From positions 1-64,000 of the forward strand of contig JAUPKJ010000257.1 in assembly GCA_030837505.1 (NCBI GenBank): a stretch of DNA of 64,000 bases. Reading direction: 5' to 3'. The DNA is from Actinomycetota bacterium. Its GTDB lineage: Bacteria; Actinomycetota; Actinomycetes; Actinomycetales; Kineosporiaceae. The position numbers and the translations under genes were made by a program. This document shows positions 12,359 through 50,339 of the stretch, piece by piece. Below the pieces are notes generated by a model. The model was not told where the DNA came from. It did not search any database and saw nothing but the letters and a program-made list of their open reading frames with translations. Positions within the stretch are counted from its first letter, which is position 1. Every line of letters starts with the position of its first letter.

Positions 12359-13366
12359 ATGCGGTGGGAAGGACTGCAGGTCGCGGGCACGGGAGCCTGG
12401 CTCCCCGAACGAGTGCCCTGTGCACAGGCTGTGGCCGAGGGCCTGTACGGGGCAGCGGAGTACGAGACGAACGAGATCGAATCGGTGTGCGTCGCAGAAG
12501 GCGTCTCACCCCCGCAGATGGCCGTCCGAGCTGCCGGGGAGGCGCTCGAACGGGCCGAACAGAACGACCTTCCCCCGGTGTCCGCCGTCTTCCACAGCCA
12601 CCTGGGGTTCCAGGGGGCAGAGATGTGGTCGGCCGCCGGACACATTTCCCACGCCGTGGGCGCCCCGGGCGCACCGGCCTACGACCTGAACCAGTCCTGC
12701 AACGGGGCGATGGCCGGCCTCGAACTCGCGGCGATGACGTTGGAACGGCAGGGAACGGGCACAGCCCTGCTGACGACGGCCGACCGGTTCGCCCTGCCGG
12801 CCTTCGACCGCTGGCGCAGCGACAGCGCAGCCGTGTACGGGGACGCCGGGACCGCCCTCGTCCTGACGACCGGGCGCGGATTCGCCCGGCTGGTGTGCAC
12901 CGTGAGCGGGGCCGATTCCACGCTGGAGGCCGAGAGCCGCGGGGCGGGTTTCCGGGAGGACCCCTGGGGGGAAAGGCCCCTGGACCTCGACACCCGCCGC
13001 GAGGACTTCCTGCGCGGGGGCCCCGGGCTGTGGGAGCACTACACCCGGATGGGGCGGACCCTGTCGGACGTCCTGGGGAGCACGCTCACCGAGGCGGGGA
13101 TCGACCTGGTCGACGTCACCTGGTTCGTGCCGGTGACCGCGACGTACCTCAACCTCAAGCGCATGGTCAAGGAGATCCTGCACGTCGAGGAGTCCAGGAC
13201 GACCTGGGACTTCGGCCGCACCGTCGGACACCTGGGCTCAGGGGACCAACTCGCCGGCCTGCACCATCTGGCGGCCACCGGCAGGCTCCGCAGCGGGGAC
13301 GTCGTGGCCCTCGTCGGTGGGGGCAGCGGGTACTTCTGCACCTGTGCCGTCCTGGAGATCCTGTGA
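12359..13366 (+). CDS. Ketoacyl-ACP synthase III family protein (specialised-metabolism type)
   Basis: A thiolase-fold protein of 335 residues. I chose the ATG giving MRWEGLQVAG, preceded by GAGAGG; the frame upstream is unlike the family. NQSCNGAMAG carries the acyl-accepting Cys114, and VGHLGSGD near residue 290 matches the C-terminal active-site region. The place where canonical FabH has HQAN reads VPVTATYL, so the usual histidine appears absent. This subgroup accompanies polyketide or peptide pathways in actinomycetes and may act as an acyltransferase rather than a condensing enzyme. It overlaps the next gene as GTGA. The adenylation partner is truncated, so the pathway may be broken. Confidence 0.82.
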   Translation: MRWEGLQVAGTGAWLPERVPCAQAVAEGLYGAAEYETNEIESVCVAEGVSPPQMAVRAAGEALERAEQNDLPPVSAVFHSHLGFQGAEMWSAAGHISHAVGAPGAPAYDLNQSCNGAMAGLELAAMTLERQGTGTALLTTADRFALPAFDRWRSDSAAVYGDAGTALVLTTGRGFARLVCTVSGADSTLEAESRGAGFREDPWGERPLDLDTRREDFLRGGPGLWEHYTRMGRTLSDVLGSTLTEAGIDLVDVTWFVPVTATYLNLKRMVKEILHVEESRTTWDFGRTVGHLGSGDQLAGLHHLAATGRLRSGDVVALVGGGSGYFCTCAVLEIL

Positions 13367-14274
13367 ACGCGGCGGACGGCGGGAACGCGGCAGGGCGCTC
13401 CCCGACGACCCTCCTGGGCTGGTTCCTCGCCTCCCGGGACCGCCACCCCCACGCCCCGGCACTGCGCGTGGGCGACCGCGTCTGGTCCTACTCGCAACTG
13501 GACGGTCTGGCCCGGGACCTCGCGGACCGGCTGACGGCCACCGGCCCAGTGCGGCGCGTCGGACTCCTGTGCCGCCGTGACGCGGGAGGGCTCGCCGGCT
13601 ACCTGGCCGCCCTGCACGCCGGGGCGGCAGTGGTGCCCCTGAATCCCGAGAACATGGTCGACCGGAACAGGAACATCGTTCGGCAGGCCCAGGTGGACTC
13701 CCTCATCGCGGACCCCGCCGACGCCGGACACCAGGACGCCCTCCTGCGGGCGCTCGCCGACACGGGCCGCCGGATCCCGGTCGTACACCCCCTCACGACA
13801 GAGCCCCGCCCTTCGACACGGATCCCCGTCGGCAGGAGCCGGGCCCGGCGCGTCCCACAGACCCGGGGACCGGGCGTCGGCGGACCACCGGAGGAGGGCG
13901 ACCTGGCCTGTCTCCTGTTCGACTCGGGCACGACCGGGCAGCCGAAGGGGGTTCCGATCACCCATCGCCAGGTCTGCGCCCATCTCGCGGCCCGGGGGCC
14001 CGAGGACGAGGTGGGTCCGGGGGACACCGTCAGCCAGATCCACGAACTCACCTCCGACCTGTCGGTGTTCGAACTGTGGACGGCCTGGGCCGGTGGAGCA
14101 TGTGTCCTGCCGCTGTCCCGGCCCCGGGACGCGCCGACAACGGCCCGCGTCCGTGACCTCGGGATCACCGTGAGGACGGCGACGGACCCCACGGTCTCGT
14201 GCCCGCAACACCGGTGGGCCCGCCCCGAGAAGATCGATTCCGACCCGGAGGTCCTTCCGGTCCCCGATCGGTGA
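13363..14274 (+). pseudogene. Truncated AMP-dependent ligase (adenylation) gene
   Basis: The 303-residue product covers only the N-terminal part of an AMP-binding enzyme, which is normally about 500 residues. FDSGTTGQPKG (186-196) is the phosphate-binding core motif, and SDLSVFELW resembles the A4 region of amino-acid-activating ligases. The downstream ATP-binding and hinge motifs and the C-terminal lid are missing. After the residues AWAGGACVLPL the sequence loses family character and stops, which suggests a deletion or recombination junction. GTG start overlaps the ketosynthase stop by four bases, so the two were once coupled. It is unlikely to be a working ligase. Confidence 0.72.
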
Positions 14275-14314: not shown

Positions 14315-14397
14315 CTTCCGGGCGTCGGTCGCGACCCCGGCCTGCAGCCGAGGGGAAGCGAATCGATGAGGTATGCCCTGCCTTCGTGGGTGTTCCT

Positions 14398-14754
14398 ATG
14401 CTTCCACCGCAGGTCAATGACCTGATCGACACGCTGCGCGCCCATGAGGACGACCCGGCGTTCGCGGACGCGCCAGTCCTGGACGTCTACGGGCGCATCT
14501 CGATCAACCCCGAGACCGGGGAGACCGAGAAGTTCGACCGCCAGATCGAGGACACCCTGCGAGAGGTCCTCCTCCTCCGCGCCCGCCTCGGCGAGGTCCT
14601 GCGCGACGACGGCAAGTCCGCCTGGAAGGCGGGAGCGAAGCGCCCGGGGTGGGAACGCTCCCTGGTCCGTCCTCTCGTCCTGCACACCCCGGCGCCGAGC
14701 ATGCTGCCGGGGCGTCGTGCTCTTGCGACGCGGATCGCACCGGGCCCCGAGTAG
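14398..14754 (+). CDS. Small hypothetical protein
   Basis: I do not recognise this 118-residue frame. The first ~80 residues (MLPPQVNDLIDTLRAHEDDP...) look protein-like, with an acidic, helical character and the segment YGRISINPETGETEKF. The last ~35 residues are Pro/Arg-rich and may be readthrough. An in-frame GTG four codons upstream is an alternative start. It stands alone between the truncated ligase and the radical SAM gene and may itself be a fragment. Confidence 0.4.
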   Translation: MLPPQVNDLIDTLRAHEDDPAFADAPVLDVYGRISINPETGETEKFDRQIEDTLREVLLLRARLGEVLRDDGKSAWKAGAKRPGWERSLVRPLVLHTPAPSMLPGRRALATRIAPGPE

Positions 14755-14999: not shown

Positions 15000-15030
15000 C
15001 GACACATCGCCCTGAAGGAGTGTGGTTCGC

Positions 15031-16110
15031 ATGTCCGACGTCCTCCCGCGGTGGGAGATCCTTGACTCCCGAGAGAAGCGCAGCAGGGACCTGCTGCCGT
15101 TCCTGACCTTCCCCGTGACCAAGTCCTGCAACTTCCGGTGCGGGTACTGCGGGGAGGGCGGGGAGCTGACGGCCAGCCGCCAGCGGGCCTGGGACGCCGC
15201 AGAGCTGCTGTCGTTCGCCAAGGCGGCCAAGGCCAGAGGGGTGACGAAACTGCGGGTCACGGGCGGCGAGCCGTTCATGCACCCGCAGATCGACGACATC
15301 CTTCGTGGCCTGGCCGACCTCGACGTGTACGTGCACGTGAACACCAACGGCTCCCTCGTCTCCCGCCACGTGGAGACCCTGGAGGACCTCGGACCCAACT
15401 TCCACTTCGCCGTCAGCCTCGACACCCTCGACGCCCAGGCCGCCCAGACGATGTCCGGCACCCGCGCCCGCTCCCCGCTGCCGGACATCCTCTGCGGCAC
15501 CGACCTGCTGCGCGGCCTGGGCCTGCTGCTGCGCGTGAACATGGTCGTCACCACGATCAACGCCCACGAGATCCCCGGCATCATCGACTTCTGCCGCGCC
15601 ACCGGGTGCGGGCTCAAGCTTCTCGACGTGGTCTCGGTTCCGCTGCCGTTCGGCGTCCGCCGCGACCTGCACGTGAGCCTGGAGCGCGTGGAGGCCGAAC
15701 TCGCCCGCGCGTCCGCCGCGATCGTGCACCACCAGTACGCGCGCTCCTTCGGCACACCGTGCCGGATCTACGACGTGGACGGCGTGCCGGTGACGGTGAA
15801 GAGCACCTGGAACGGGTCGCGCTACGACACCTCGGGCATCTGCTCTGGCTGCCCCTACTTCCCCTGTCACGAGGGCCTCTACGACATCTTCGCCCTGCCC
15901 GACCACCGCGTCATCGGCTGCCGCTGGTCCGAGACCTCCGTGGCCGGACAGCCCGTGCCCGAGGGCGACGCCGCCACGTTCGTCGCCCGACTGGAAGACC
16001 TGGCCGCCGTCTTCCAGGCCGCGGACCACGTCGCCCGGCAGTCGAACAACGCGATGCCCCCAAGACCCGCGTTCGTTCTCCGCTCCACAGCAGAGAGGAA
16101 CGCGCCGTGA
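15031..16110 (+). CDS. MoaA-like radical SAM enzyme with auxiliary cysteines
   Basis: A 359-residue cytoplasmic iron-sulfur enzyme that would cleave S-adenosylmethionine to start radical chemistry on an unknown substrate. Cys33, Cys37 and Cys40 in CNFRCGYC bind the catalytic [4Fe-4S] cluster, and TGGEPFMHP follows as the SAM-contacting GGE segment. The C-terminal CSGCPYFPC plus a later VIGCRW cysteine probably bind a second cluster, as in MoaA and SPASM/twitch enzymes. I chose ATG (MSDVLPRW) because GAAGGAG lies 10 bases upstream; a GTG nine bases earlier would sit on the ribosome site. It precedes a tRNA-synthetase-like gene. No molybdopterin genes are near, so true MoaA function is unlikely. 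Confidence 0.85.
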   Translation: MSDVLPRWEILDSREKRSRDLLPFLTFPVTKSCNFRCGYCGEGGELTASRQRAWDAAELLSFAKAAKARGVTKLRVTGGEPFMHPQIDDILRGLADLDVYVHVNTNGSLVSRHVETLEDLGPNFHFAVSLDTLDAQAAQTMSGTRARSPLPDILCGTDLLRGLGLLLRVNMVVTTINAHEIPGIIDFCRATGCGLKLLDVVSVPLPFGVRRDLHVSLERVEAELARASAAIVHHQYARSFGTPCRIYDVDGVPVTVKSTWNGSRYDTSGICSGCPYFPCHEGLYDIFALPDHRVIGCRWSETSVAGQPVPEGDAATFVARLEDLAAVFQAADHVARQSNNAMPPRPAFVLRSTAERNAP

Positions 16111-16179
16111 GCCCGCCGGCCTGCCCCATGAAGATACTCGGGGACAGGCTGGACCTGACACCCGAGAAATCAGGCGAGC

Positions 16180-17244
16180 ATGGGTGAGTACTTTCGAGTG
16201 CTTGCGGTTCGCCGTCACAAATCCTGCTGGTTTCTTGATGCGATGAACGCTGACGGCAGGCAGCAGCTTGCGGTTGATGCAACGCTCGCGCGCCAGAAAG
16301 AAATATCGCGGCTCTCCCTTCTGGAAGCCACCGTGCACCCTGCGGTGAACGACAGCGGCCAACCAATCCTGCAAGTAACTCATATCGGTTCATGCAGGAC
16401 CCCGAGAGGCGACTCGCCACGGAAGGCGGGACCGGATGACTTTCTTGTGGGCGCCATCGATCGGACCGTATTCATGAGCCTGTTTCTCGCCGCCATCTCG
16501 GAGCACCTTTCGGAGCAAGGGTATCTCCGCATCCTGAGTCGTTCGATGATGAATGAACGAGGAACAAGCCTGGCACCTCCGGCAAGAATCTGCGGGAGGC
16601 ATGTCAAAGGATTCCTCAAGATTACTCACGAACTGGAACTCAAGGAAGTGGTGGCCATCACCCTGCGGCCGGCCTTCGAAATCGGATATGTCGTCCGAGA
16701 TGTCCACAACAGGAGATCATCGCCGAACGAGTACTTGCTGCTCGAATTGGTTGACCCCGTCGTGGATGTTTCAGTCGTTCAGCGAGAAATACTCACCGTT
16801 GTGAGCCTTGCCGCGGAGGTGGCCGACCGACTCGACCTCCCCCATGCCGACTACTCGAATATGGAAGTTCGAGACGTGGACCAAGAGGTTCCCCACCTCG
16901 ACCATGCGCAAAGAACTGGATGGTTTCGGGAACAGAAGCCCATGACCGCCAATGCGATCTTCCTCAACTCCCCGGTGAACTCACCCCTGGCTCGATCAGT
17001 GCGCGGCCACCGAAAGGAAACGATATGGATTGTCAACGGAAAGAGTGTTGCCCATGGTTACCGTGACGAGACTGATTACGACAACTTCCACGAGGAATCT
17101 CTCCGGCAAGAAGCGAGACTCAGGGGCGGCGGGGTTTGCGGCGGCCCCTCTTCGCGTTTCCTGAACTTGCTGGATCTAGGGGCTCCGGAATCGGTGAGCA
17201 TGGGATTCGGGGTCGAGCGATTCATTCAGGGTTTCCTGACCTAG
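16180..17244 (+). CDS. Class II lysyl-tRNA-synthetase-like catalytic domain without anticodon domain
   Basis: A 354-residue protein matching the catalytic core of class II LysRS/AsxRS enzymes. FLKITHELELKEVV followed by AFEIGYVVRD (Arg173) aligns with motif 2. SPNEYLLLEL aligns with the HNPEF..MEL segment. NSPLARS and IVNGKSVAHGYRDE match the late core, and MGFGVERF (Arg347) is motif 3. The motif 1 proline and the motif 2 glutamate appear replaced. There is no N-terminal OB-fold, so it would not read an anticodon. Such proteins, for example EpmA/PoxA, activate amino acids for other acceptors. Base composition is lower than neighbours (57% GC in a 60-base sample), which suggests transfer. The ribosome site is weak. 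Function unknown. Confidence 0.78.
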   Translation: MGEYFRVLAVRRHKSCWFLDAMNADGRQQLAVDATLARQKEISRLSLLEATVHPAVNDSGQPILQVTHIGSCRTPRGDSPRKAGPDDFLVGAIDRTVFMSLFLAAISEHLSEQGYLRILSRSMMNERGTSLAPPARICGRHVKGFLKITHELELKEVVAITLRPAFEIGYVVRDVHNRRSSPNEYLLLELVDPVVDVSVVQREILTVVSLAAEVADRLDLPHADYSNMEVRDVDQEVPHLDHAQRTGWFREQKPMTANAIFLNSPVNSPLARSVRGHRKETIWIVNGKSVAHGYRDETDYDNFHEESLRQEARLRGGGVCGGPSSRFLNLLDLGAPESVSMGFGVERFIQGFLT

Positions 17245-17390: not shown

Positions 17391-19121
17391 ATGGCGCATG
17401 AGGTCACTGGGCAATCAAATGGCCACGAAGACCGGGACTGGGTGGATCGGTTCGCGAGCGAGCTCATCGCCCAGGCTGATCGCAAAAAGCCCGGACAGGC
17501 CATCACCTGCGCCTCTGGACTCAGCCCCTCAGGTCCTGTGCACCTGGGGAATCTCCGGGAAGTGATGACGCCGCACCTTGTCGCCGACGAGGTGCGGCGT
17601 CGCGGGCGAGAGTGCGTCCACGTACTGTCCTGGGACGACTTCGACCGCTTCCGGAAGGTCCCGGCCGGGGTCGACCCGTCCTGGAACCAGCACATTGGCA
17701 AGCCACTTAGTCGCGTGCCGGCTCCGGCTGGAAGCGAGTACCCGAACTGGGCCGAACACTTCAAAGCCCCGATGCGTGCCGCCCTGGCCGAGCTTGGTGT
17801 CACGGTTCGCGAGGTCAGTCAAACCTCGATGTACACCTCAGGTGCCTACCGCGAGCAGATCTTTGCCGCAATGGCTCACCGGCACGCGATTGACGCCATT
17901 CTCGATCAGTACCGCACCAAGGGACGAACGGGCTCGGCTCCGGATCCCACCGTCAACGACGCGGAAGCCCTCGCAATCCAGGGATCAGGGGCCTCGACCG
18001 ACGACGACGGCAAGTCCACAACGGGGTACTTCCCCTACAAGCCGTTCTGTTCGCGCTGCGACAAAGACCTCACCACCGTCACCCACTACGACGACGACAC
18101 GACGGAACTCCACTACGTCTGCAATGCGTGCAGCTTTCAGGAAGCGGTCCGACTCGACAGCCACACCAACGGCAAACTGGTGTGGAAGGTCGACTGGCCG
18201 ATGCGATGGGCGTTCGAGGACGTCGACTTCGAGCCGTCCGGCGTGGACCACTCGTCACCAGGATCGTCGTACGTCGTCGGCAAGCAGATCGTCCGCAAGG
18301 TATTTCATGCCGAGCCACCGATCGGCCCCATGTACGCCTTCGTCGGTATCTCGGGAATGGCGAAGATGAGCAGTTCCCGCGGCGCCGTCCCAACCCCCAG
18401 CGACGCTCTGAAGGTCATGGAAGCTCCGGTGCTGCGCTGGCTTTACGCACGGCGTCGCCCGAACCAGTCGTTCAAAGTCGCTTTCGACGGCGAATTGGCG
18501 CGCCTCTACGACGAGTGGGACGCCGCCACCCGCCGCAAGAGCGGTCAAACGGCCGGAAGCGAGGATCCCTCCTACGGTCGAGCCCTGAACGCCGGTGGGC
18601 GGACGCTGACAACGACCCCGCACACGGTCCCCTTCCGGACATTGGCCTCGATCGTCGACGTGACGGCGGGCGACACGGATCAGGTCCTGCGCATCCTGCG
18701 CCAGCTCGATCCCCAGGACCCTGTCTCCGACCTGGCGGACGTGGAACCGCGGCTCTCTCGGGCCAGCTACTGGATCAACACACAGGTGCCACTCGAGGAA
18801 CGCACCCAGATCCGCGACGAACCGGACAAGGATCTCTTGGCGCAGCTGTCCGACAGCGAACGCGAAACGTTGACGCTGCTGGTTGACGGTCTCGACAGCC
18901 ACCAGTCCCTCGAACAGTTGACCACACTGGTGTATGCGGCGCCGAAAATCCAGGCCGGATTGCCGGTCGATGTTCAACCGACACCAGAGTTGAAGGCTAT
19001 TCAGCGGAAGTTTTTCTCCCTGGTGTACAGATTGCTGGTGACGCGAGACACCGGACCTCGGCTGCCCACGCTGCTGATCTCCATCGGGACAGAGCGCGCC
19101 AAGAAGTTCCTTACCCCCTGA
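17391..19121 (+). CDS. lysK: Lysyl-tRNA synthetase, class I
   Basis: Charges tRNA-Lys using the class I (Rossmann) fold found in archaea and some bacteria, unrelated to class II LysRS. The 576-residue product has HLGN (51-54) as the HIGH motif, KMSSS (325-329) as the KMSKS loop, and a zinc knuckle of Cys220, Cys223, Cys244 and Cys247 between them. The length fits the family. It starts at ATG with an apparent leaderless promoter. It directly follows a class II LysRS-like gene, so both unrelated lysine-activation folds sit together. It could be the cell's housekeeping LysRS, a second copy, or part of the neighbouring pathway; the window cannot decide. Confidence 0.93.
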   Translation: MAHEVTGQSNGHEDRDWVDRFASELIAQADRKKPGQAITCASGLSPSGPVHLGNLREVMTPHLVADEVRRRGRECVHVLSWDDFDRFRKVPAGVDPSWNQHIGKPLSRVPAPAGSEYPNWAEHFKAPMRAALAELGVTVREVSQTSMYTSGAYREQIFAAMAHRHAIDAILDQYRTKGRTGSAPDPTVNDAEALAIQGSGASTDDDGKSTTGYFPYKPFCSRCDKDLTTVTHYDDDTTELHYVCNACSFQEAVRLDSHTNGKLVWKVDWPMRWAFEDVDFEPSGVDHSSPGSSYVVGKQIVRKVFHAEPPIGPMYAFVGISGMAKMSSSRGAVPTPSDALKVMEAPVLRWLYARRRPNQSFKVAFDGELARLYDEWDAATRRKSGQTAGSEDPSYGRALNAGGRTLTTTPHTVPFRTLASIVDVTAGDTDQVLRILRQLDPQDPVSDLADVEPRLSRASYWINTQVPLEERTQIRDEPDKDLLAQLSDSERETLTLLVDGLDSHQSLEQLTTLVYAAPKIQAGLPVDVQPTPELKAIQRKFFSLVYRLLVTRDTGPRLPTLLISIGTERAKKFLTP

Positions 19122-19152: not shown

Positions 19153-19983
19153 GTGAACACGAACGAGGCAAGCAGGGACGTGCGCGCGCACTACGACCGT
19201 GTCGCCCTGCGTGAGGGGACCCGGCTGCAGGACCCCTACCGCGCCAGTGAAGCTCTCGTACTGCGCGCCGTCGTGGGCGGCCTGCTGGCGGACCGTGGCC
19301 CGCTGAGCGTGGTGGCCGAGATCGGGTCAGGGCCAGGGCACTATGGGCCCTGGCTCCACTCGATCGCCGAGCGGGTGCTGTGCCTGGACCTGTCAGCGGT
19401 GGAACTGGCAGCGGTGCCCGGCGTCCGGGACACGGCACGGATCCAGGCCGACGCCTGCCGCCTGCCCGTGGCCGACGGACGGCTGGACGCGGTGTTCCTG
19501 CTCGGCCCGCACTACCACCTGCCTGAGGCCGTGGACCGACGGCGGATGATCAACGAGGCGGTGCGCGTGCTTGTCCCCGGTGGTCTGCTCGTGGTCGCTG
19601 GCCTGAACCGCACCGGGGCCAGCGTGAAGACGGTCTGGCGGTGTCCACGGCGCGCCTGGCGGACCCGCGTGCTCCTGGGGAAGGCCCTCCGCGCGTCGGT
19701 CGCGCTACCGGCCGGCGCGCTGGGAGACTTCCCACCCGCGTTCTTGTCGGACGGGCACGCACTGCGAGCGGAGCTGGAGACCGCCGGGCTGGTCGACGTG
19801 AGCGTGCACGGCTGCGAGTCGTTCACCGTTCTGGCCCCGGGACTGGCCCGCCGCGCCCGGCGGGGCCCGCGGGCCGGGCGGGCGCTGGACGCGCTCCTGG
19901 TCTCCTCCGCGCCCGGGCGCGTGTCGCTGGCCCTGTCGGAGCACCTGCTCGCCGTCGCCCGCAAACCGGGCCCGCCCGGCTGA
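19153..19983 (+). CDS. Class I SAM-dependent methyltransferase
   Basis: A 276-residue cytoplasmic methyltransferase. VVAEIGSGPGHYG near residues 53-65 is motif I of the Rossmann fold that binds S-adenosylmethionine. ARIQADACRLPVADGRLDAVFLL-type sequence gives the acidic loop and motif II region, and VLVPGGLLVVAGLNR is motif III. The substrate is not evident. It starts at GTG 31 bp after lysK, likely in the same transcript. Its TGA stop directly abuts the stop of the convergent B12 radical SAM gene, with no base between them. Confidence 0.85.
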   Translation: MNTNEASRDVRAHYDRVALREGTRLQDPYRASEALVLRAVVGGLLADRGPLSVVAEIGSGPGHYGPWLHSIAERVLCLDLSAVELAAVPGVRDTARIQADACRLPVADGRLDAVFLLGPHYHLPEAVDRRRMINEAVRVLVPGGLLVVAGLNRTGASVKTVWRCPRRAWRTRVLLGKALRASVALPAGALGDFPPAFLSDGHALRAELETAGLVDVSVHGCESFTVLAPGLARRARRGPRAGRALDALLVSSAPGRVSLALSEHLLAVARKPGPPG

Positions 19984-21774
19984 TCACAGAGCGGGCGGCC
20001 CCGGGGCGAACACCGCGCGCCGGTCCCGGAACATCGACACCGCCTCCTGCACCCGCTGGGGGGTCATCTCGTTGCCCACCAGGCCGCGCACGGCCAGCAG
20101 CCGGGAGAAGCCGTCCTCCAGACGCAGGCCGGGGAACTGTTCCTGCGCGGCACGGAAGTACTCCGTGCCGTACCGGGGCGTGGCCACGATCACGCTCTTG
20201 GTGTACGGCACGCGCAGCCGGGAGACCGTCGCCCGGGTCCGCTCGATCGTCGCCGGCGTCTCACCGGGAAGGCCGATCATGATGAAAGCGTGCGGGGAGA
20301 TCCCGGCCCGCGCGGTGTCCTCGATCGCCGACAGCATCGCCTCGTCCGAGCGGTACTTGTTCGCCGCCGCGACGATCCCCGCGTCGAAGGACTCCACGCC
20401 GAACCAGATGCCCTCGCACCCCGAGGCCGCCATCTCCGCGAGCACCGCCGGGGAGACGGCGTCGATGCGGGTCTCGCACACCCACGACACGCGCAGGCCC
20501 CGGCGCCGGTACTCGCGGCAGAACTCGTGCACCCACTCGTGGCTCGCGGTGAACGTGAAGTCGATGAAGAACACCGCCCGCACCTCGTGCCCGTCCTGCA
20601 ACCGGGCCAACTCCTCGACGACCGCGCCCGGCTCGCGGCGGCGCACCCGGCGTCCCCACGCGTTGAAGCAGAAGTCGCACCGCCACGGGCAGCCCCGGTT
20701 CGCCAGGACCGTGGCCCACCCGCGGCGCCGGTAGGGAAGCCCGTCGCGGTACCCGTCGCCGTAGTAGGCCGAGAAGTCCACCAGGTCCATCGCCGGGAAC
20801 GCCTCCGGCACCTCCGGGCGCCTCAGCACCTGCGGCGCCGGTCGGTGGAGGTCCACCACGGCGTCCCCCACCGTCTCCGGCGTGACGACGGAACCGGGCA
20901 GGTCGCCGCCCTGCGTCAGGGCCGTCACCAGGAACGGGACGAGGACGTCGTACTCGCCGCGCAGCACCATCGGCACGCCGAAGTCGCGCAGCACCAGATC
21001 GGGGCGCACCGTGGCGTGCGAGCCGCACACACACACCACCGCCCCCGGCAGCAGCCCGGTCAGGGCGCGCACCAGGCACACGCTCAGGGCGTACCGGTAG
21101 TCCAGGAAGTAGTTCTGCACCTGGTCGTACGGCGTCGTCGTCACCACGACCACCGCGCACCCGGCCAACCGTCGTGCTGCCTCCGCGTCGGTCATCGTCT
21201 CTGCGCGCAGGTCCAGCAGCACCACCTCGGCACCCTGAGCACGCAGCCTCGTCGCGGACAGCATCATGCCCAGCGGCGGCTGGAGGAACGAGTTCCCGCT
21301 CAGGTACGGCGGGACCACCAGCCCCACCCGCACCGGCGCACCCCCGGCGACCGGTCCCGGTGCGTGGGCCGAACAGCCGGGCGCCGCCACGGTGGGGGCG
21401 TCCGGCGCGGCGGCGAGCAGGGCCCCCACCACCTCGGCATCACGGTCGAGGTCCTCGATCCCGTTGCCGTCGCGGGAGCGCAAGTCCTCCCACGCCGCCA
21501 GCCACGCCCCGCGCAACCGCGCGTCCATGAGCCCCACGTGGTCGCGGAACGCCGAGACCACCCAGAACAGCGTGCCCGCATCCTGCTCCCGCGCCGCGTC
21601 CAGCACCCCGAGCGCCCGAGCGGACAGCCCTGCGTCGTGACGCGCTGCCTCGAACATGCCGCCCAGGAACCACGCGGCCCGGCGCCGGTCGGCAACCACG
21701 TCGCCGGTGGCGGGCCCGACGACCCCGGCCACGTCAGCGGCGACGTCCTGCGAAGAAGGCGCGACCTCGTCCAC
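19984..21774 (-). CDS. B12-binding domain radical SAM protein
   Basis: A 596-residue enzyme of the cobalamin-dependent radical SAM class, which often methylates unactivated carbons or rearranges substrates in specialised metabolism. An N-terminal helical region of about 140 residues precedes a B12-binding domain (VRVGLVVPPYLSGNSF through GEYDVLVPF). The radical SAM core follows, with Cys362, Cys366 and Cys369 in CPWRCDFC, FFIDFTFT and a GIWFGVESF strand. I chose the GTG giving VDEVAPSS, with AGAGGA eight bases upstream; a TTG 23 codons earlier is possible. It converges on the methyltransferase gene. TAGAAT about 75 bp before the start is a possible -10 box. Substrate unknown. Confidence 0.87.
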   Translation of the reverse strand: MDEVAPSSQDVAADVAGVVGPATGDVVADRRRAAWFLGGMFEAARHDAGLSARALGVLDAAREQDAGTLFWVVSAFRDHVGLMDARLRGAWLAAWEDLRSRDGNGIEDLDRDAEVVGALLAAAPDAPTVAAPGCSAHAPGPVAGGAPVRVGLVVPPYLSGNSFLQPPLGMMLSATRLRAQGAEVVLLDLRAETMTDAEAARRLAGCAVVVVTTTPYDQVQNYFLDYRYALSVCLVRALTGLLPGAVVCVCGSHATVRPDLVLRDFGVPMVLRGEYDVLVPFLVTALTQGGDLPGSVVTPETVGDAVVDLHRPAPQVLRRPEVPEAFPAMDLVDFSAYYGDGYRDGLPYRRRGWATVLANRGCPWRCDFCFNAWGRRVRRREPGAVVEELARLQDGHEVRAVFFIDFTFTASHEWVHEFCREYRRRGLRVSWVCETRIDAVSPAVLAEMAASGCEGIWFGVESFDAGIVAAANKYRSDEAMLSAIEDTARAGISPHAFIMIGLPGETPATIERTRATVSRLRVPYTKSVIVATPRYGTEYFRAAQEQFPGLRLEDGFSRLLAVRGLVGNEMTPQRVQEAVSMFRDRRAVFAPGPPAL

Positions 21775-21897
21775 CGGAAATGTCCTCTCGCCCGCGCGGA
21801 CAGTCGTGGGGCGCGGCCACACGACCGCGCCCCACAACTGCAATTCAGGCCATTCTATCCGGAAACGGTACTATTTGACCTCAGCGATTCGCATCAT

Positions 21898-22575: not shown

Positions 22576-22866
22576 GGCCTCGTCGAGCGCGCGAGCTGCT
22601 GGTACACCGAGTGGGTCAAGGCCCGCCGCTCCGGCGACCAGGGCCAGTGTGTGGAGATGCGCCGCGACGGCGAGGCCGTGCAGGTGCGTGACTCCAAGAA
22701 CGTCGAGGGCGGGCGCCTCCCGGACGCCGCGAGCCGAAGCAACCTCTTGCCGGTCGCTCAAAATTCTCACTCGTCGTGGCAGATCTGCCACGGGACTGAG
22801 ACGCCCCGGGCCGAGGCCAGCCCTGCTGGCCCCATCGGGCGTGAACCTGAGCATGGGAGGACCTGA
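22567..22866 (+). CDS. DUF397 domain protein (C-terminus uncertain)
   Basis: Residues 15-50 (WVKARRSGDQGQCVEM, then VQVRDSKNVEG) match DUF397, a small domain found almost only in actinomycetes next to XRE-family regulators. No XRE gene is present here. After residue 51 the family pattern is lost and the frame runs on to overlap the ATPase start as TGATG, so a frameshift or degeneration is likely. The last third of the frame contains a perfect 18-bp palindrome, which fits a regulatory region better than coding DNA. The start is a GTG with weak support. Confidence 0.55.
   Translation: MSHGLVERASCWYTEWVKARRSGDQGQCVEMRRDGEAVQVRDSKNVEGGRLPDAASRSNLLPVAQNSHSSWQICHGTETPRAEASPAGPIGREPEHGRT
22775..22792. 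promoter_or_regulatory. Perfect 18-bp palindrome, possible operator of the ATPase gene
   Basis: CGTGGCAGA/TCTGCCACG is perfectly symmetric with no spacer and ends 73 bp before the ATPase start. Size and position fit a binding site for a dimeric repressor such as an XRE protein. Confidence 0.5.
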
Positions 22867-24266
22867 TGCTGCGGAGCTTCCGGTTGCAGAACCACCGCTC
22901 CTTCCTCGGCGAGGCCGAGTTCTCCTTGTTGCCCGCCTACTCAAGTTCACGGTCTGCTGTCACGGTGACAGCGATCTACGGTGCGAATGCTGCGGGGAAG
23001 TCCAACCTGCTGGACGGGCTGCGTTTCATGACCATGGCGGTCAGGAACTCCTACCGTCAGTGGGATCCCTCAGCCGGAGTGCCCCGTCAACCGTTCAAGC
23101 TGTCTGCCGAGGGACAGCAGGAACCATCTACCTTCGTCGTAGATCTGATGCTGGGCGGTGTCCAACACGTCTACGGGTTCGTGATCAACGACGAGACCGT
23201 GCTGGAGGAGTGGCTCTATACGTATCCTCATCGCCGCAAACGGATGCTGTTCGAAAGAGATGGTGACGGAATCCGGTTCGGCAGCACTGCGATCGACCAT
23301 CGCGGTAAGGTCGAGTTCCTGGCGGAGCTGACACGGCCCAATGCGCTTTTTTTGAGTGCAGCCGCCCAAGCAGGACTGAGAGAGTTCCTTCCTGTCCGGG
23401 AATGGCTGACGCACGACCTCCAGTGGGGCGGCCACCGTAGCTTCCCGATTCGTTCGGCGGGCATCGATTCACTGCCGGACCTCATCGCACACAGCGAGGA
23501 GAGCCGTGAAAGCGTCCTCCGATTGATCCGTGCGGCCGACCTCGGTATCACCGATATTGTGATGGAACCGGATGAGACCGCAAGGTCCTTCAGGAAGGAA
23601 CGGATCGAGAGGGATCTGACGACCTTGCGTCTCCAGTTCAAGCACATGGATCCGGACGATTCTTTGTTCTCCCAAAGGGAGGAGCGGCTGGCACAATTGT
23701 CTCTGTTGCTGGAGCAAGTGAACTCCCAACCGGTGCCTCAAAGGATGCTGTTCAGTCATGGGAACGACGTGCTATTCGACATGGACGAGGAATCGGCGGG
23801 AACTCGTTCCTGGATGACCAATCTTCCCCTTTTTCTCTGGGCCTTGAAGAAGGGGAAGACCCTGGTTGTCGATGAGATGGACACGAGTCTGCACCCGCAC
23901 CTCATGGCCTTCTTGATAGGGTTGTTCGCTTCCGAGGAAAGTAATACCGAAGGAGCCCAGCTCCTGTTCGCCACCCACAACGCGAGCCTTCTGGGAACAT
24001 CCCTCGGCGATGAGCTGTTGAAAAGGGATCAGATCTGGTTCATCGAAAAAGACGTTGGAGGAAACAGTATCCTGTACCCTTTGACCGATTTCCACCCCCG
24101 CAAGGGGGAGAACAGGGAACGTCGCTATCTCGCGGGAAGCTACGGCGCTGTGCCCGTGATCGATGACGTCCTTCATTCCTGCTGCTGGCCCGAGAATGGT
24201 TCGCCGGCTGTTGCGGGACCTGATGATCGGCTGGACGGAGGGGGGCATATCGATGACCCGGCGTGA
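22866..24266 (+). CDS. RloA/AbiL-like AAA ATPase
   Basis: A 466-residue ATPase of the SMC/OLD-like group used in phage defence. MLRSFRLQNHRSF is the typical start, GANAAGKSN (39-47) is Walker A, LVVDEMDTSLHP is Walker B with the signature, and FATHNASLL is the H-loop region. The size and C-terminus fit RloA/AAA_15 proteins with no extra nuclease domain. ATG start has GGGAGGA upstream and overlaps the preceding stop by one base. The next gene, overlapping by 14 bp, is an RloB start, the usual partner, but it is cut short. Base composition is visibly lower than flanking genes, consistent with horizontal transfer. Confidence 0.82.
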   Translation: MLRSFRLQNHRSFLGEAEFSLLPAYSSSRSAVTVTAIYGANAAGKSNLLDGLRFMTMAVRNSYRQWDPSAGVPRQPFKLSAEGQQEPSTFVVDLMLGGVQHVYGFVINDETVLEEWLYTYPHRRKRMLFERDGDGIRFGSTAIDHRGKVEFLAELTRPNALFLSAAAQAGLREFLPVREWLTHDLQWGGHRSFPIRSAGIDSLPDLIAHSEESRESVLRLIRAADLGITDIVMEPDETARSFRKERIERDLTTLRLQFKHMDPDDSLFSQREERLAQLSLLLEQVNSQPVPQRMLFSHGNDVLFDMDEESAGTRSWMTNLPLFLWALKKGKTLVVDEMDTSLHPHLMAFLIGLFASEESNTEGAQLLFATHNASLLGTSLGDELLKRDQIWFIEKDVGGNSILYPLTDFHPRKGENRERRYLAGSYGAVPVIDDVLHSCCWPENGSPAVAGPDDRLDGGGHIDDPA

Positions 24267-24507
24267 GAACTGTCCGAGGCGTCAAGGCCCATCGAGGCAT
24301 TCCAGAACCAGCGTTCTCGTTCTTTGCGGGGGCAGACGTACCGAGGTGGACTACCTGAACGCTCTGAGGACCTGGGCGAGAAATCCCGCAGTACGGGTCA
24401 AGGTGATAGGCCGCGGAGAGGCTCCCGATAATCTGGCTGATGCAGTGGGGCCGAATCCGTCCTCGGGGATGTGGAGGCTGGCTGAGCTGATGGTTGAACG
24501 GGGCTGA
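24253..24507 (+). pseudogene. Truncated RloB-like gene
   Basis: The 84-residue product begins with basic residues and then VLVLCGGRRTEVDYLNALR, the first strand and helix of the TOPRIM-like RloB domain. RloB proteins are usually near 200 residues. Here the frame stops soon after MWRLAELMVERG, and the later catalytic region is absent downstream. The next ~170 bp hold no recognisable gene. The RloAB defence pair is therefore probably inactive. Confidence 0.65.
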
Positions 24508-33118: not shown

Positions 33119-33400
33119 GCCGTGTGCCTGCCTTCCGCGAATGTTGTTACCTGGCTGCTACGGATCGTGTCCGGACCACAACCGTTCCGACATCGGCCTC
33201 GCGGTGGAGGATATGCCCACCCCGCCGACGCCGGACGGGCCGGTGGGCCGTGGGAAGGATCCTTCCCACGGCCCACCGGCCCGTCCGGCGTCGGCGGGGT
33301 GGGCATATCCTCCACCGCGAGGCCGATGTCGGAACGGTTGTGGTCCGGACACGATCCGTAGCAGCCAGGTAACAACATTCGCGGAAGGCAGGCACACGGC
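33119..33400. other. Axis of the giant palindrome, between two divergent DUF2252 starts
   Basis: The symmetry point lies between bases 33259 and 33260, inside GGATCC, and there is no spacer. Each 141-bp half-arm is the same sequence in opposite direction. Within each half a 7-bp pair GCCCACC/GGTGGGC could form a small hairpin next to the axis. The whole segment is a perfect inverted repeat and would form a long cruciform or fold-back. No clear promoter was identified for either DUF2252 copy. Confidence 0.85.
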
Positions 33401-49274: not shown

Positions 49275-50339
49275 CTAGGTCAGGAAACCCTGAATGAATC
49301 GCTCGACCCCGAATCCCATGCTCACCGATTCCGGAGCCCCTAGATCCAGCAAGTTCAGGAAACGCGAAGAGGGGCCGCCGCAAACCCCGCCGCCCCTGAG
49401 TCTCGCTTCTTGCCGGAGAGATTCCTCGTGGAAGTTGTCGTAATCAGTCTCGTCACGGTAACCATGGGCAACACTCTTTCCGTTGACAATCCATATCGTT
49501 TCCTTTCGGTGGCCGCGCACTGATCGAGCCAGGGGTGAGTTCACCGGGGAGTTGAGGAAGATCGCATTGGCGGTCATGGGCTTCTGTTCCCGAAACCATC
49601 CAGTTCTTTGCGCATGGTCGAGGTGGGGAACCTCTTGGTCCACGTCTCGAACTTCCATATTCGAGTAGTCGGCATGGGGGAGGTCGAGTCGGTCGGCCAC
49701 CTCCGCGGCAAGGCTCACAACGGTGAGTATTTCTCGCTGAACGACTGAAACATCCACGACGGGGTCAACCAATTCGAGCAGCAAGTACTCGTTCGGCGAT
49801 GATCTCCTGTTGTGGACATCTCGGACGACATATCCGATTTCGAAGGCCGGCCGCAGGGTGATGGCCACCACTTCCTTGAGTTCCAGTTCGTGAGTAATCT
49901 TGAGGAATCCTTTGACATGCCTCCCGCAGATTCTTGCCGGAGGTGCCAGGCTTGTTCCTCGTTCATTCATCATCGAACGACTCAGGATGCGGAGATACCC
50001 TTGCTCCGAAAGGTGCTCCGAGATGGCGGCGAGAAACAGGCTCATGAATACGGTCCGATCGATGGCGCCCACAAGAAAGTCATCCGGTCCCGCCTTCCGT
50101 GGCGAGTCGCCTCTCGGGGTCCTGCATGAACCGATATGAGTTACTTGCAGGATTGGTTGGCCGCTGTCGTTCACCGCAGGGTGCACGGTGGCTTCCAGAA
50201 GGGAGAGCCGCGATATTTCTTTCTGGCGCGCGAGCGTTGCATCAACCGCAAGCTGCTGCCTGCCGTCAGCGTTCATCGCATCAAGAAACCAGCAGGATTT
50301 GTGACGGCGAACCGCAAGCACTCGAAAGTACTCACCCAT
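49275..50339 (-). CDS. Class II LysRS-like catalytic protein, second copy
   Basis: Same 354-residue protein as the 16180-17244 gene: class II motif 2 arginine (Arg173), NSPLAR, VNGKSVAHGY and motif 3 MGFGVER, but no anticodon-binding domain. Confidence 0.78.
   Translation of the reverse strand: MGEYFRVLAVRRHKSCWFLDAMNADGRQQLAVDATLARQKEISRLSLLEATVHPAVNDSGQPILQVTHIGSCRTPRGDSPRKAGPDDFLVGAIDRTVFMSLFLAAISEHLSEQGYLRILSRSMMNERGTSLAPPARICGRHVKGFLKITHELELKEVVAITLRPAFEIGYVVRDVHNRRSSPNEYLLLELVDPVVDVSVVQREILTVVSLAAEVADRLDLPHADYSNMEVRDVDQEVPHLDHAQRTGWFREQKPMTANAIFLNSPVNSPLARSVRGHRKETIWIVNGKSVAHGYRDETDYDNFHEESLRQEARLRGGGVCGGPSSRFLNLLDLGAPESVSMGFGVERFIQGFLT

Follow-up and report, generated by a model that had tools for sequence, protein, structure and literature searches.

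What does a class II LysRS-like (LysRS2-like) protein of 354 residues do when its gene lies between a radical SAM (rSAM) gene and a complete class I LysRS (LysRS1), in a genome that has its own normal class II LysRS (43.5% identical to LysU)? The initial annotation of the 64-kb window, that is, of the whole stretch of DNA analysed, had suggested for the protein a role beyond normal translation and had compared it with EpmA; as set out below, our analysis supports such a role and contradicts the comparison. The features of the locus are collected in Table 1. The whole contig (66,518 bp) is one perfect palindrome centred between positions 33259 and 33260. Its arms, as far as the window shows them, match at every position and meet with neither spacer nor loop, and on these grounds it is probably an assembly fold-back, a real hairpin end being a conceivable alternative. 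Because of the palindrome the two copies of the LysRS2-like ORF count as one gene, and positions 1–33259 were taken as the real sequence.

Table 1. Coordinates of the LysRS2-like gene, its predicted domains and its neighbours (positions in the window)
Feature	Position	Strand	Remarks
Radical SAM protein (P0002), MoaA/PqqE-like core	15022..16110	+	upstream of LysRS2-like ORF
LysRS2-like ORF, 354 aa (P0001)	16180..17244	+	GC 57%, GC3 0.65; intact frame
Predicted OB-fold anticodon-binding domain, residues 2–75	16183..16404	+	alignment, OB profile, AF2 model
Predicted class II catalytic core, residues 85–354	16432..17241	+	alignment with LysRS
Motif 2 region, residues 165–190	16672..16749	+	R173, E189 kept; E265 to V175, H271 to S181, F275 to Y185
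Motif 3 region, residues 335–353	17182..17238	+	R347 kept
Class I LysRS, complete, 576 aa (P0003)	17391..19121	+	downstream of LysRS2-like ORF
SAM-dependent methyltransferase	19153..19983	+	31 bp past class I LysRS
Second, identical copy of LysRS2-like ORF	49275..50339	-	other palindrome arm; counted as same gene

Judged by its sequence, the ORF encodes a distant, highly diverged and truncated class II LysRS paralogue. Its product is remote from LysRS (18–25% identity), and no Pfam or NCBIfam match reaches a curated family cut-off: the NCBIfam LysRS model gives 19.3 bits (E 3.6e-4; cut-off 468 bits), the NCBIfam EpmA model 18.6 bits (cut-off 264 bits) and Pfam PF00152 13.7 bits (cut-off 25). 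The matches in these two collections are nevertheless confined to LysRS, EpmA and the class II D/K/N core, the top PDB chain is a LysRS (3a74, E 3.5e-5), and a profile that we built from 16 LysRS gives 39 bits over two colinear stretches, all of which bears out the class II LysRS likeness first proposed. PADLOC returned no defence-system match for the protein. Modelling by AF2 with LysRS homologues gave low overall confidence (pLDDT 60, pTM 0.54); prediction from the single sequence was uninformative (pLDDT 32), with a strand pattern in the OB and late-core parts that matches the alignment-based model. Foldseek with the latter model ranked LysRS first (E 6e-15), a result that is not independent, the model having been built on a LysRS alignment.

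The protein had been described as lacking an OB-fold or anticodon domain, and here the data point the other way. In an alignment with E. coli LysU, EpmA and 15 other LysRS, residues 2–75 are colinear with the LysRS OB fold, the stretch EYFRVLAVRRHKSCWFLDAMNADGRQQLAV aligning with VAGRVMARRGHGKLTFLDLVDRSGRIQLLC of the LysRS L029. An OB-only profile outscores all of 2000 shuffles, by the small margin of 6.9 bits versus 5.8 for the best shuffle, and in the AF2 model this region, the best-scoring part of the protein (pLDDT about 70–84), forms a five-stranded barrel. Based on alignment and model, then, an OB fold is predicted to be present; the N-terminal helical extension of LysRS is missing. Residue roles were taken from the anticodon, tRNA 3′ end and adenine contacts of human LysRS (PMC11878792). 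Three of the four anticodon contacts are kept, namely R11, F18 and Q29 (R78, F85 and Q96 in LysU; R136, F144 and Q155 in the human enzyme), and the fourth, E135, has become Q61.

From the catalytic core a segment of some 40 residues that in LysRS separates motif 2 from motif 3 is missing, as is the C-terminal IRDVILFPxxRP tail after motif 3. Of 119 alignment columns with a conservation of 90% or more among LysRS, the protein agrees with 35 and departs from 84. The class II arginines of motifs 2 and 3 already recognised in the initial annotation, which form the arginine tweezers (R173, R347), are in place. So are both glutamates for the α-amino group (E151, E189) and, at Y294, an aromatic side chain, and conservative changes affect the acid for the lysine ε-amine (E429 to D296) and the adenine-stacking Phe (Y185). 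Lost are the motif 2 Glu (V175) and His (S181), the lysine-packing Tyr (V191), the motif 1 Pro (R121) and one of the glutamates that we take, from LysU structures, to bind Mg (S289); the second is ambiguous, since the alignment places I282 at this position and E280 is just two residues away. The replacement of motif 1 and motif 2 positions was thus correctly noted from the start. Loss of ATP-binding residues had been named as a finding that would count against the assignment as a class II aaRS-like enzyme, and it is partial: the motif 2 Glu/His pair and one Mg-binding Glu are gone, and both class II arginines stay. Compared with bacterial LysS/LysU, the protein shares a colinear OB fold and class II core and keeps the counterparts of R263, R481, E241, E279 and the anticodon R/F/Q; both termini are lost, together with residues of the Mg site, of motif 1 and of motif 2. 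We infer that it no longer makes lysyl-adenylate efficiently and hence is not a tRNA-charging enzyme; with several residues for ATP use lost, it probably does not load tRNA itself.

Both flanking genes are real by their family matches, as initially annotated. The rSAM gene has a better start at ATG 15031, preceded by AGGAG, and its description as MoaA-like holds for the MoaA/PqqE-like core and not for the whole protein: it scores 113 bits against the MoaA model (cut-off 284) in a match that stops at residue 233, gives no match to the MoaA C-terminal domain Mob_synth_C, and lies under every family cut-off shown. LysRS1 is 65% identical to homologues from another family of the same class. The rSAM, LysRS2-like, LysRS1 and methyltransferase genes follow one another on the same strand, separated by 69, 146 and 31 bp, and the methyltransferase is a possible member of the cluster. 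A TAAAAT sequence, read by eye and not called by the scan, ends 7 bases 5′ of the LysRS1 ATG, and LysRS1 may be transcribed separately. Spanning the first gap is a 26-codon ORF (16107–16187, VSPPACPMKILGDRLDLTPEKSGEHG) that begins in the rSAM stop (GTGA) and terminates within the start of the LysRS2-like gene (ATGGGTGA); it could reflect translational coupling, a small peptide or chance.

Further out, a KASIII-like gene (12360–13366) is followed by an AMP-binding/adenylation ORF (13363–14274) that covers the first two thirds of the domain and looks like a fragment, and by a 122-aa ORF (14386–14754) that has no family match and whose DNA recurs at 85% identity on contig C4 of this genome. On the other side a B12-binding radical SAM protein (19984–21843, minus strand) converges on the methyltransferase. 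An AAA_21 ATPase (22866–24266; 295 bits to the PADLOC AbiLi model) is overlapped by a short ORF (24163–24507) that may be a truncated partner, and the two may represent an abortive-infection pair that has been broken. Within 22704–22762 lies a stretch of about 55 bp that belongs to a dispersed repeat family, with copies of 86–95% identity on over 15 further contigs of the genome. No tRNA or known RNA was found within the window.

In base composition the LysRS2-like ORF stands out (57% GC, versus 70% for the rSAM gene and 63% for LysRS1; GC3 0.65 versus 0.78–0.94 in the flanking genes of the stretch), and this suggests lateral acquisition into the GC-rich, apparently actinobacterial host genome. 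We found no orthologue of the protein in 198 relatives, 396 genomes of the phylum and 395 of the class, in viral contigs, plasmids or phages, or in genome contigs searched with the single sequence, nor, in the alignment search of these contigs, among the matches listed. The non-self matches fit canonical LysRS, and all that were extracted are LysRS, one of them a LysX-type fusion (L079). The rSAM neighbour likewise has no orthologue in the genomes searched, and no related rSAM or aaRS-like neighbour accompanies 20 other class I LysRS loci or, judged from its ORF list, the same-family locus L088. Conservation of the rSAM–LysRS2-like pair in other genomes, suggested at the outset as a check, is therefore not shown, and the association rests on one genome. 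This genome also combines LysRS of classes I and II, a coexistence known for some prokaryotes (PMC1475646). Bacillus cereus likewise has both classes, with a laterally acquired LysRS1; its LysRS2, however, is complete and unlinked to LysRS1.

Taken together, the loss of Mg and motif 2 residues with retention of residues for tRNA reading and amino acid holding resembles AcmF of ascamycin biosynthesis, and for this reason our preferred reading, to which we assign a probability of about 0.35, is that the LysRS2-like protein would be a Lys-tRNA-dependent transferase working in the same manner. AcmF, an AlaRS-like protein of class II, is truncated, lacks most ATP-binding residues and has D232E as a further change; it uses Ala-tRNA as donor and moves the Ala to dealanylascamycin, and its cluster also encodes a second AlaRS-like protein, AcmD (PMC12945691). 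The protein studied here is similarly a truncated class II aaRS lacking residues for ATP activation, its conservative E429 to D296 change may be compared with D232E, and a second synthetase-type gene is nearby. Unlike AcmD, this neighbour belongs to the other class; it is a complete LysRS, in a genome with a normal LysRS2 besides. By analogy, Lys-tRNA would be charged by the neighbouring LysRS1 or by the housekeeping LysRS2, the LysRS2-like protein would bind the charged tRNA, and the lysyl group would then be passed to an acceptor, either a peptide or a small molecule, that is produced or altered by the rSAM and methyltransferase neighbours, with which LysRS1 and the LysRS2-like gene share strand and short gaps. 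The small-molecule aminoacylation considered in the initial annotation thus stays open, and is more likely to be tRNA-dependent than ATP-dependent. AcmF differs in being built on AlaRS, in having a demonstrated activity and in belonging to a proven antibiotic cluster, whereas here an rSAM and a methyltransferase gene adjoin and the nearby AMP-ligase is a fragment, so that an intact biosynthetic cluster is not evident. The main objection comes from the loss of the motif 2 Glu and His: in human LysRS these residues are located at the adenine and at the 3′ end of the tRNA (PMC11878792), and a user of aminoacyl-tRNA might be expected to retain them. Also against the transferase reading, there are no orthologues and hence no conserved association with rSAM or LysRS1, the GC content of the three genes differs and may indicate separate origins, and LysRS1 may have its own transcript.

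The same pattern of kept ligand-holding residues and anticodon contacts and lost ATP/Mg residues would suit a LysRS2-derived pseudo-synthetase with no chemistry of its own. Such a protein would bind tRNA-Lys, lysine or both and act as a sensor of charging or as a regulator of some other enzyme, for which HisZ and SLIMP are precedents in principle. We regard such a regulator as doubtful, though as the next most likely reading, since neither a partner gene nor an orthologue speaks for it and it makes no prediction about the rSAM gene. In either case the protein may use or sense tRNA loaded by the complete LysRS next door.

Truncation at both ends, the internal deletion, the foreign base composition and occurrence in a single genome could alternatively mark the gene as the remnant of a laterally acquired LysRS2 losing its function beside a complete LysRS1. 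This we consider unlikely, because a freshly decaying gene should be much nearer its source than about 20% identity, and yet the frame stays open over all 354 codons (a chance of about 2e-6 by base composition; none of 3000 base shuffles gave more than 289 codons free of stops), GC per codon position has a coding-like pattern and the structural pattern is colinear. In a tree the end branch of the protein is saturated at 8.5–10 changes per site, and its placement failed; such a branch together with an open frame argues for long selection as a protein.

Somewhat less likely still is an ATP-dependent aminoacyl ligase, EpmA- or AsnA-like, that would activate a lysine-like acid and attach it to a protein or small molecule. 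With the arginine tweezers, E151, E189, Y294 and D296 in place, the site might still accommodate an amino acid that bears an amine, but one Mg-binding Glu and the motif 2 Glu/His, all kept by EpmA, are gone. EpmA (PoxA/GenX) is itself LysRS-derived, of about the same length and active outside normal tRNA charging; it lacks the OB fold that the LysRS2-like protein has, and it retains a full ATP/Mg/lysine site, with R100, E102, H108, F112, Y118, E237, E244 and E251, that is, every active-site position listed, most of which are lost or changed in the degraded site of the LysRS2-like protein. The genome, about 96% complete, carries an EF-P with the loop PGKGG and gives no match to lysine 2,3-aminomutase/EpmB (TIGR00238). 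With the OB fold, the lost active-site residues and no EpmB-type partner found in this genome, a role in EF-P modification was rejected, and with it the EpmA analogy.

Least probable is a tRNA-binding partner of LysRS1 in a LysRS1/LysRS2-like complex charging an unusual tRNA. Such charging has been reported with Bacillus cereus tRNA-Other and with Methanosarcina tRNA-Pyl (PMC2916919, PMC1475646), and the adjoining LysRS1 and the kept OB contacts would suit the idea, but no tRNA was found in the window and the 20 other class I LysRS loci have no such neighbour.

Should the gene prove a silent remnant or a regulator, it would be a modest addition to the known aaRS paralogues. That paralogues using charged tRNA in place of ATP chemistry, such as AcmF and SbzA, contribute to natural-product chemistry has been recognised recently. 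SbzA (SB-203208) is an extra, IleRS-like class I aaRS for tRNA-dependent aminoacyl transfer; it differs from the LysRS2-like protein in class and in being a near-complete synthetase with weak charging activity. We know of no LysRS-based transferase that has an opposite-class LysRS as its partner. It is a tentative prospect that the protein described here is the first LysRS-derived aminoacyl-tRNA-dependent transferase, one that would take lysine from LysRS1-charged tRNA, without ATP activation, to give a lysylated natural product or peptide; such a pairing would be new if true, and easy to test.
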